A stretch of DNA of 61,457 nt from Candidatus Gastranaerophilales bacterium (GTDB lineage Bacteria > Cyanobacteriota > Vampirovibrionia > Gastranaerophilales > Gastranaerophilaceae), in the NCBI GenBank assembly GCA_947589425.1, contig CANQAV010000010.1, forward strand, positions 1-61,457. Direction: 5' to 3'. Of the stretch, positions 2,027 through 35,025 are shown in pieces; the first letter of the stretch is position 1; each line of letters begins with the position of its first letter. Below the pieces are notes generated by a model. The model worked only from the letters and a program-made list of their open reading frames with translations, ran no database searches and was not told where the DNA came from. The translations under genes and the position numbers were made by a program.

Positions 2027-2685
2027 TAGAATATTTCTCCTAAAAGTTCGGGTTTTTTACTCTGTTTAACAGCATTATACAACAATTTGCAAGACATACA
2101 CTTACCGCAGTGTTTTTTTGAATTTTCCGTTTTTTTATAACAGCTTTTAATTAGATTTAGCGGAAGATTGTTGTCTATTGCATAATTTACCATTTCGATT
2201 TTGTTTAATTTAATGCATGGTGCAAGAACTTTCGGGTGGTTAATTGTTGCATATTTAAAATATTCATTTGTTAATTCGACAAATTTTTCCGTGTTATCGG
2301 GAAAATCTCTTCCTTCTTCTTTATTTGCTCCGAAAATTATATAATCATATTTGTATTTATCTGCCCAAACAGCTGCAATATTAAGAAAAAGACCGTTTCT
2401 GTCAGGTATCCAAACCGAATTAAAATTATTGAAATCATCGTTATTATCATTTGTCAGGGCATTTGATGAAACTTCTTTAACAAAAGGCAATTCAATCGTT
2501 TTTTGATTAATTTTATAATATTTTGAAATTTCTTTGGAAGCAGTTTCTTCGTCTTGAAATGCTTTTTGACCATAGTTAAAAGTGAGCGCCAGTTGAATAT
2601 TGCAAATTTTTTGCGCCATATCAAGGCTGACAAAGCTGTCTAAACCGCCCGAGAGTAATATAATTCCTGTTTTATTCGTTTTCAT
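2026..2685 (-). CDS. queC: 7-cyano-7-deazaguanine synthase QueC
   Basis: 219 residues, the usual QueC size. It converts 7-carboxy-7-deazaguanine to preQ0 with ATP and ammonia in queuosine synthesis. The PP-loop 'LLSGGLDS' is at residues 11-18, and the C-terminal zinc-binding cysteines appear as 'CYKK...HCGKCMSC'. 'VWIPDRNGLFLNIAA' matches the conserved central motif. It overlaps the upstream HEAT gene by 14 bases and touches the downstream DUF366 gene. queE (30.7 kb) and queA (26.9 kb) are in the same window, so the queuosine pathway is dispersed rather than clustered. Confidence 0.93.
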   Translation of the reverse strand: MKTNKTGIILLSGGLDSFVSLDMAQKICNIQLALTFNYGQKAFQDEETASKEISKYYKINQKTIELPFVKEVSSNALTNDNNDDFNNFNSVWIPDRNGLFLNIAAVWADKYKYDYIIFGANKEEGRDFPDNTEKFVELTNEYFKYATINHPKVLAPCIKLNKIEMVNYAIDNNLPLNLIKSCYKKTENSKKHCGKCMSCKLLYNAVKQSKKPELLGEIF

Positions 2686-3583
2686 ATTCTTCCGTTATTT
2701 CTCTTGCATATTTTTTTAATTCTTCTTCGTACTCCCCTTCTATTACTTCGTTGAGTATTGAAGCATCGGACAAATTATACAGCGCCGTGAGAGCATTTTT
2801 TTTGACCTCAATATCATCATCATTTTTTAATCTCTCGTATATTAAGTCATAATTTTCTTCAATATCCGAATTCATAAGGGTTTCAATCGTACTTATTCTT
2901 ACATTCTTATTATTATCCAAAAGGGATGTTTTTAAAATATCAAGCGCTTTTTTGTTTTTTGAAATATCCATTTTAGACATTGCTTCTATCATTCGCTCTT
3001 TAAAAAATGAAAATTTGTCCAAAAACATCTGTTTTGTATGCATGATTGAATTAAATACATCAAGAGCCCTATTGTCCCCCAATAAGCCGAGTGCAACAAC
3101 TGCTGATTCTCTGACATAAAGGGATTTTTCTTCTTCGTCGCACACAATATTTGTTAAAGATTCAAAAGCATTTTTATCTCCGATTTTGCCCAAAGCCTCT
3201 GCTGCGGCAAATCTTATTTTATAATTTGAATTTTTATCGTTTAAACAACTCAAAAGTGCGGGCAGGGAACTTGTATCTTTAAAATTTGAAATTGTTTTAA
3301 TTGCGAGAACTTTTAAATTTAAATATTCGCTTCCGCTGTAATTTTTAAACAAAAAATCTATAAGAGCATTAAGGTTTTGCGGGCTTCTTGTTTCGTTGAT
3401 TTTTCTTATTGTATAGTTTAAAAATCCTGTATCATTTATGTTTGTTAAAATATAATTATAAGTGTATAAAATACCCTTAATGCCGAATTTATCTTTTATG
3501 TCGTCGAAAAAAAGAGCATAATTTTTTTCGCCCTTAAGCTTTTCTTCTAAGTATAAGACTATATCTTCCGAAAAATCATTCAT
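2672..3583 (-). CDS. HEAT-repeat protein
   Basis: 303 residues. Tandem HEAT-like helical repeats run through the chain; the clearest units contain 'AAAEALGKIGDKNA' and 'SAVVALGLLGDNRALD' (about residues 130-180), with more degenerate copies on both sides. Such repeats form a curved scaffold for protein binding; a specific partner cannot be named. No signal peptide or membrane helix is seen, so it is probably cytoplasmic. First gene of the leftward unit, divergent from dnaG. Confidence 0.75.
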   Translation of the reverse strand: MNDFSEDIVLYLEEKLKGEKNYALFFDDIKDKFGIKGILYTYNYILTNINDTGFLNYTIRKINETRSPQNLNALIDFLFKNYSGSEYLNLKVLAIKTISNFKDTSSLPALLSCLNDKNSNYKIRFAAAEALGKIGDKNAFESLTNIVCDEEEKSLYVRESAVVALGLLGDNRALDVFNSIMHTKQMFLDKFSFFKERMIEAMSKMDISKNKKALDILKTSLLDNNKNVRISTIETLMNSDIEENYDLIYERLKNDDDIEVKKNALTALYNLSDASILNEVIEGEYEEELKKYAREITEEYENE

Positions 3584-33460: not shown

Positions 33461-33823
33461 TTAGAATTGAAGCCCTGCTTCTCTTGCGGCATCTGCTAAT
33501 GCTGCAACTCTTCCGTGGTATAAGAAGCCGCCTCTGTCAAACACAACGCCTTCAATACCTTTTGCAAGGGCTTTTTTAGCGATATCAGCGCCGACTGCTT
33601 TTGCACTTTCAACGTTTCCGCCGTGTTTTAAATTGAGTTCTTTAACCTTTGAAGAAGATGAAGCTAAAGTAGTACCCGTTGTATCATCTATAATTTGAAC
33701 ATAGATGTGTTTTGTTGAACGGTATACTGCCATTCTCGGCCATTGTGCATCACCTGAAATTTTAAGACGTACTCTTTGATGTCTTTTTCTTGTTTGGTCT
33801 TTTCTGTTAACTGTTTTAATCAT
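33461..33823 (-). CDS. rplR: Ribosomal protein uL18
   Basis: 120 residues. A central-protuberance protein that binds 5S rRNA. The basic N-terminus ([19 protein letters not shown]) is followed by the L18 core '[15 protein letters not shown]' and C-terminal '[19 protein letters not shown]'. A 662-base spacer separates it from rplF, and a terminator follows it, so rpsE, rpmD, rplO and secY are not in the usual position. The start has AAAGGAAAG upstream. Confidence 0.96.
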
Positions 33824-33993
33824 TTTCTCTTTCCTTTCACCAAAACCGTGTCCTTTAATGAGGTCGGTTTATACTGGCAATTGTAGTGTTGTAGTGGGTT
33901 TGCTGCGTAGAAGTTTAAGTTGTTGATATTACTTTTCGCACAGCTCGTGTGCTTGAAAATTTATACCTTCGGTCTGATTTTCTTACGCACACT

Positions 33994-34046
33994 TGCGCAT
34001 ACTTCATCCCTAGTGTTTGCCGAAGCTCACAAAGGGCTGAAGTAAC
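33994..34046. repeat. 53-bp direct repeat, copy 1
   Basis: Identical to 34213-34265, starting TGCGCATACTTCATCCCTAG. Weaker similarity extends leftward to 33935, making a copy of about 112 bases. Confidence 0.9.
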
Positions 34047-34212
34047 TTTTGCCCTCATTTTGCTCGCTAAGTGCCCTCGCACTAAAGCTCGCTTCATTCG
34101 GGCTTAGAAATGTCTTCGCCCTGTCCGCCAGACCTCAACGGTCTGCCGTCACGGGCTTCGCACAGCTGGCTGACTTGAAAATCTAAGCTGATGCTTGATT
34201 TTCTACGTCATC

Positions 34213-34265
34213 TGCGCATACTTCATCCCTAGTGTTTGCCGAAGCTCACAAAGGGCTGAAGTAAC
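34213..34265. repeat. 53-bp direct repeat, copy 2
   Basis: Perfect second copy, offset 219 bases. Weaker similarity extends leftward to about 34157. Confidence 0.9.
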
Positions 34266-34268
34266 CTC

Positions 34269-34325
34269 TGCCCTCGCTTGCGTTCGTCAAGTTCGCCCTG
34301 CGAACTAAGACTCACTTGGCTTGGG
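34269..34325. repeat. 57-bp direct repeat, copy 1
   Basis: Begins TGCCCTCGCTTGCGTTCGTC and differs from 34425-34481 at four positions. It contains the GTTCGC-CCT-GCGAAC hairpin. Confidence 0.85.
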
Positions 34326-34424
34326 ATTGCTCCTGAGGAAATCGGAGATTTCCACGTCGCTGTGGTACGGTCTTCGGGCTGTCGGCAAGGCTCAACGCCT
34401 TCCCGCACGCCCTTCGCACACCTT

Positions 34425-34481
34425 TGCCCTCGCCTACGTTCGTCAAGTTCGCCCTGCGAACCAAGACTCACTTGGCTCGGG
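34425..34481. repeat. 57-bp direct repeat, copy 2
   Basis: Second copy, offset 156 bases, ending four bases before the rplF stop codon. Confidence 0.85.
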
Positions 34482-34485
34482 TCAA

Positions 34486-35025
34486 TTATTTCTTGCCGGC
34501 TTTACCTGCTTTTCTTGCAATGTATTCGCCTTCATATTTTACACCCTTGCCTTTATATACTTCAGGAGGACGTTTAGAGCGAATTAAAGCCGCAATGTCA
34601 CCTACCATTTGTTTGTTTGTTCCTGATACGGTGATTTTTGTATTTGCTTCAACCGCAATTGAAATTCCTTTTGGAGGCTCAATTATTACAGGGTGAGAAT
34701 AACCTAAAGATAAATTGATTGCACTTCCCTGCATAGCTGCACGGTAGCCGACACCAACTATCTCAAGCTTCTTTTCAAACGGTGTTTTAACACCTGTGAT
34801 TGCGTTTGAAACAAGTGTTCTGAAAAGTCCGTGAAGGCTTCTTGATTTTCTGTCTTCGGCTTTTCTTTGAACGATAACTTCTTTACCTTCAACTTTGACT
34901 TCAAGTTCACAAGGAAATTCAACTGTTTCAGTTCCTTTAGGACCTTTAGCACTTAAGGTATTTCCTTCAATCTTTACTTCAACGCCGTCAGGTATTGAAA
35001 TTGGTAATTTGCCTATTCTTGACAT
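34486..35025 (-). CDS. rplF: Ribosomal protein uL6
   Basis: 179 residues. Binds the base of the L7/L12 stalk region and contacts the sarcin-ricin area. 'MSRIGKLPISIPDGVEV' and 'GVGYRAAMQGSAINLSLGY' mark the two L6 domains, and the C-terminal motif is 'IRSKRPPEVYKGKGVKY'. Order and direction are those of the spc region. It is followed by the repeat spacer. Confidence 0.97.
   Translation of the reverse strand: MSRIGKLPISIPDGVEVKIEGNTLSAKGPKGTETVEFPCELEVKVEGKEVIVQRKAEDRKSRSLHGLFRTLVSNAITGVKTPFEKKLEIVGVGYRAAMQGSAINLSLGYSHPVIIEPPKGISIAVEANTKITVSGTNKQMVGDIAALIRSKRPPEVYKGKGVKYEGEYIARKAGKAGKK

Follow-up and report, generated by a model that had tools for sequence, protein, structure and literature searches.

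Mosaics of RNA-folding hairpin modules between rplF and rplR and across a genus of Gastranaerophilales

The rplF-rplR spacer and its modules

In the analyzed window, a 61,457-nucleotide stretch from Candidatus Gastranaerophilales, the ribosomal protein genes rplR (33461-33823, minus strand) and rplF (34486-35025, minus strand) are separated by 662 nt (33824-34485). A previous sequence-only reading of this spacer had noted its length, two direct repeats, hairpins with a common loop, and a high G+C content, and all these features were reproduced. The 53-bp repeat (33994-34046 and 34213-34265) is identical over all 53 bp, whereas the copies of the 57-bp repeat (34269-34325 and 34425-34481) differ at four of 57 positions. 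The two hairpins, CAGACC-TCAAC-GGTCTG at 34129 and AAGGC-TCAAC-GCCTT at 34387, retain the loop while having different stems, and the loop reads GUUGA on the transcribed minus strand. The G+C content of the block is 53.4%, compared to 33.1% for the window, and exceeds that of every sampled 549-bp window.

The block can be decomposed into hairpin modules, all on the minus strand, that follow each other along the transcribed strand in the order H1-H2-H6-H1-H3-H4-H2-H1'-H3-H4. The element begins on the rplF side, at about 34481, with the first H1 copy (34426-34481), a hairpin CCCGAG...GCGAGGGC with GA-rich internal loops; this 5' end lies 4 nt past the rplF stop codon. The first H1 copy is followed by the first H2 copy (34364-34422), a GGUGUG...GUUGA...CGUACC hairpin that matches the H2 covariance model R1 with 72.3 bits, and by H6 (34326-34360; GCGACGU-hairpin-CAGGAGCAAU), which comes before H1 in tandem units. 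The second H1 copy (34269-34325) belongs to the 57-bp repeat. The 53-bp repeat corresponds to H3, a hairpin UUACUUCAGCCC...GGGAUGAAGUA at 34213-34265, adjoined by H4 (34167-34212; hairpin GAUGACGUAGAAAAUC...GAUUUUCAAGUCAGC). In the second H2 copy (34107-34166; loop GUUGA, R1 match of 59.3 bits) the stems are altered and still pair (GCCC/GGGC and CAGACC/GGUCUG). An H1-type variant (34051-34102; CCCGAAUGAAGCGAGC...GAGGGC), the other H3 copy (33994-34046), and the other H4 (33947-33992; hairpin GUGUGCGUAAGAAAAUC...UUUUCAAGCACAC) complete the array, the rplR-side end of which lies near 33920-33935.

Empty and filled sites in related genomes

The spacer is empty, with a length of 66-76 nt, in at least ten members of the genus, and filled, with a length of 146-665 nt, in ten genomes, the analyzed one and nine others. 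All inserts start 0-4 nt past the rplF stop codon and have variable 3' ends. The H1 and H2 modules of the block are found in only some of them; the rest share the general style or a GCGACGU...CAGGAGC module. Since several insert types occupy this site, several insertion events are likely, and the inserts in G001, G002, and G004, which are of one type, may descend from a single event.

The filled sites keep the ancestral rplR leader, which in the window lies outside the insert (33824-33880, minus strand; conserved AUUGCCAGUAUAAACCGACC...GGUUUUGGUGAAAGGA upstream of rplR) and is also seen in the relatives with empty sites. This leader, UUGCCARYAUAAACCGACC...GGNNNCGGUUUUGGUGAAAGGA, is conserved in nearly all genus members, and its ends pair with compensatory differences; it is possibly a small leader RNA.

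RNA folding and covariation

The operon (minus) strand of the block folds better than its dinucleotide shuffles, with a z-score of -10.5, compared to -3.9 for the plus strand (only 20 shuffles each). The sequence-only reading had suspected structural selection, and this is supported by strong covariation in H2. In this module, the outer stem GGUGUG/CGUACC is followed by a 4-bp stem and an upper stem, the latter closed by a loop that in most cases reads GUUGA. Pairing is retained in 90.5% of 518 cells, and double changes occur at 13 of the 18 pairs. The number of double-change cells is 83 against a shuffled mean of 23, and none of 500 shuffles reached this value, a figure that should not be read as a probability because shuffles ignore relatedness. 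The signal is lost when the partner strand is slid. Among 82 distinct H2 sequences, with the near-invariant tandem G-U excluded, G-U combinations outnumber A-C ones 30 to 10; this count is biased, as the model was built for the operon strand, but the invariant G-U pair points in the same direction.

The sequence of H1 is far more variable than that of H2, yet it typically retains a hairpin structure, with symmetric internal loops that are GA-rich. By z-score, 35 of 36 distinct H1 examples fold better than their own complements, which is weak evidence because the examples were chosen as sense-strand hairpins.

Distribution of the modules

The block is one of many copies, as expected for the spread repeat family that had been considered from the sequence. 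Neither a solitary copy lacking homologues nor a lack of paired stems, either of which would have refuted the sequence-only reading, was observed. A BLAST search with the block yielded 37 matches in about 20 places of its own genome, mostly mosaics of the same modules in a different order; the analysis of these copies covered the sequence surrounding the matches. At two places of this genome, flanking-element stretches are 98.4% identical across 320 bp, which suggests recent copying or conversion. Matches were found in all 28 genomes of the genus and in none of 30 sampled genomes outside it, at the DNA level. The covariance model R1, built from 31 H2 sequences, revealed 488 matches in 26 of the 28 genomes, up to 48 per genome, and also matched several further genera of the same family. 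These genomes are draft assemblies whose contigs break at the repeats.

A pattern scan of GTDB genomes, combined with record names, places the relatives in Candidatus Gastranaerophilales. The H6 pattern gave 91 matches, about 20 of them in records named Gastranaerophilales, Melainabacteria, Cyanobacteria SIG27, or similar; the remaining ones are probably due to chance. Plasmid and phage collections contained no match, and viral contigs contained none to the H2 pattern and nine, possibly by chance, to the looser H6 pattern. No Rfam 15 family scored above its gathering score over the elements, and we found no literature report specific to repeats in Gastranaerophilales.

At the groEL 3' end in three loci (L264, L265, and L286), the elements belong to a subfamily in which the 5' arm of H1 is identical or similar to the C-terminal codons of groEL (ATGGGAATGATGTAA). 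The same subfamily occurs at loci without groEL (L277, L280, and L301), as if a host sequence had been captured and then spread.

Insertion sites

The elements have a sharp 5' end, A or T followed by CC, and a variable 3' end. The start could be defined for 88 first units. Of these, 16 begin 0-9 nt after a co-directional stop codon (187 of 15841 random positions, or 1.2%, in the control), and 12 directly follow an intrinsic terminator (76 of 15841, or 0.5%); this test covered co-directional features only. An antisense placement is seen at a tRNA-Arg gene (L276).

Insertions at genes for tRNA-Leu, -Met, -Ala, -Pro, and -Arg are accompanied by duplication of the tRNA end at which the element lies. 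The duplicated stretches measure 17-52 bp, and in most cases the intact tRNA lies on the far (downstream) side of the insert. These cases may not typify all insertions, as selection must favor duplications at tRNA genes. A uniform target duplication was sought across insertion sites and not found: long duplications are clear at tRNA genes, and none is clear at most stop-codon or terminator sites, a difference that makes a single mechanism uncertain.

A second kind of hairpin insert occurs at tRNA 5' ends in four loci (L263, L296, L076, and L288, positions 2200-2720, minus strand). In L288, the tRNA-Leu 5' end recurs as an almost exact reverse complement (CCAATTTCGCCACAGGTGGCAT) ahead of the duplicated tRNA start, and the inserts in L263 and L076 have similar complementary ends.

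Some elements reside within genes. Relatives without the element have a small hairpin as the P3 region of rnpB, and the stretch that starts with GUCGGCU and runs to GAGGAAAGUCC mostly measures 32-40 nt. In G012, G014, G022, and G024, each having a single rnpB match, this stretch spans 173-299 nt and contains H1-H2-H1; in the analyzed genome it spans 71 nt and contains one H1-like hairpin. The insert is predicted to extend the host stem in three genomes (G022, G012, and the analyzed one), and the outer pairing is less clear in G014. The gene of an RseP-like protease, so named from a HEIGH motif and its translation, carries inserts at the same start position in four species, and the two translated examples stay in an open frame (574 and 508 residues). 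By eye only, the reading frame of the gene upstream of the element in L071 (4300-4600, plus strand) also appears to continue without a stop into a complete H1-H2-H6 unit, in which case the element would supply a C-terminal tail to its product.

Origin and mobility of the repeats

The spread of copies, the coexistence of empty and filled sites, the one-strand covariation, the junction preferences, and the target duplications, all read from genome sequences, are consistent with the block being one multi-unit copy of a non-autonomous, BOX-like mobile mosaic repeat that is tolerated through its RNA fold, and we consider this the probable explanation. The building blocks would be the hairpin modules H1, H2, H6, H3, and H4, whose one-strand fold is preserved while the sequence drifts. 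They would insert with a sharp 5' end, often right behind a stop codon or an intrinsic terminator and in the same orientation. Within tRNA, rnpB, or protein genes, insertion would be possible where it duplicates part of the target, or where the inserted sequence closes into a stem of its own or stays in an open frame. At the studied locus, the element would have inserted right behind the rplF stop codon and left the old rplR leader intact; presumably, it is co-transcribed with the ribosomal operon and folds into a string of hairpins. We suggest that the fold is what makes the insertions tolerable, that the spread is selfish, and that some factor mobilizes the repeat in trans.

The strongest competing scenario, which concerns part of the pattern, involves no true transposition: template switching during replication and tandem duplication at hairpins would copy and shuffle local repeats. 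It agrees with the tandem units that end in a partial copy, the variable length of the target duplications, the GAAG microhomology at an rseP junction (L248), and the near-exact inverted copy of the tRNA-Leu 5' end in L288. However, random switching would not produce the sharp 5' end with which the same H1 and H2 sequences appear at many unrelated loci, and as a full account this scenario is unlikely. We prefer a trans-mobilized mosaic repeat tolerated through its fold. Some of the array structure and of the near-identity of copies could be due to tandem duplication and gene conversion.

Of the mobile palindromic element considered from the sequence, mobility is supported by the many copies and the empty orthologous sites, whereas palindromic in the REP or MITE sense fits poorly because of the GA-rich internal loops in the stems, the better folding of one strand, and the lack of a detected RAYT. 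A REP/BIME or MITE family that acts at the DNA level and is mobilized by a Y1 (RAYT/IS200-like) transposase, with the RNA fold incidental, would account for interspersed hairpin mosaics, the bias toward extragenic positions, insertion immediately 3' to a short sequence, and one sharp end. We nevertheless regard it as quite unlikely: the Y1 transposase domain (Y1_Tnp, PF01797) is absent from the analyzed genome and present in one of 28 genomes of the genus, against 26 of 28 for the element, and the G-U pairs together with the tandem G-U favor one strand. Moreover, IS200/IS605 elements are not known to generate long target duplications.

A retroelement-like process, in which the element RNA is reverse-transcribed at a nicked target, would yield a fixed 5' end, a ragged 3' end, and variable duplications, as observed, and the preference for terminators resembles that of group IIC introns. 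Against it, no reverse transcriptase domain (RVT_1) was found in the analyzed genome or in several element-rich species, G010 and G023 have RVT_1 and no H2 match, and the block has no match to an Rfam group II intron, so that this origin appears very improbable. Both the Y1 transposase and the reverse transcriptase were rejected as movers, being absent from the analyzed genome and uncorrelated with copy number.

Finally, the modules could hardly be a regulatory RNA or processing island that tunes rplR expression, as also suggested from the sequence: the position in an operon spacer, sense strand, strong fold, and location right after rplF in ten species would fit, but many relatives lack the element there, others hold different inserts, and the same modules adjoin tRNAs, rnpB, groEL, rseP, and other unrelated genes.

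Comparison with known repeat families

The nearest analog in how the element would work is provided by BOX elements, likewise modular, folded, and parasitic. In Streptococcus pneumoniae, these are interspersed short repeats of 67-637 bp with variable numbers of internal modules and a strong predicted RNA fold; they are judged parasitic, and one participates in a composite RNA structure with T-box riboswitches (PMC3049150). With their variable numbers of H1/H2/H6 units, the repeats described here are analogous to BOX elements in organization only. Unlike BOX elements, the block is GC-rich against its own genome, a search for terminal inverted repeats around the complete array detected none, and the elements start right after stop codons or terminators, enter rnpB P3, and are linked to long duplications at tRNA genes.

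Rickettsia palindromic elements can lie in the reading frame of protein genes and are then translated. By description, the in-frame inserts observed here are similar, but the elements are mainly beside genes, modular, and in a different host phylum. Group IIC introns prefer sites just after intrinsic terminators, in the orientation of the gene. The same co-directional preference is seen here; however, the modules are much smaller, and membership in group II introns or retroelements was rejected, given no Rfam intron match in the block and no RVT_1 in the analyzed genome.

Target site duplications of MITEs are usually of a constant short length. Membership in this class fails on that point, the duplications being 17-52 bp and variable at tRNA genes, with none clear at most other sites. 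As for terminal inverted repeats, H1 closes on itself (CCC/GGG), we found no repeat that frames the whole block, and the 3' ends of elements vary. REP/BIME sequences with RAYT (PMC2817692, PMC3116915) are likewise interspersed hairpin mosaics located mostly outside genes, but the modules described here are larger, with purine-rich internal loops and one better-folding strand. Membership fails on the missing Y1 transposase and on orientation, as the modules of the block are arranged head to tail, with no inverted repeat pairs found, rather than in alternating orientation.

A more tentative possibility, which we consider doubtful, is a class of RNA-folding mobile elements whose spread depends on no known transposase or reverse transcriptase. 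Such elements would have a single fixed end, would generate long target duplications of variable length, and could persist within essential RNAs, RNase P RNA for example, since the helix formed by their closing ends would continue the host stem.

In summary, the repeats form a large population, the copies of which appear to be under selection for RNA folding. They also provide natural experiments in which insertions were absorbed at tRNA loci, in the gene of an intramembrane protease, and in the only RNase P RNA gene detected. Identification of the mover could uncover a new mechanism of insertion; failing that, the repeats document how a compact genome tolerates fold-preserving parasites.
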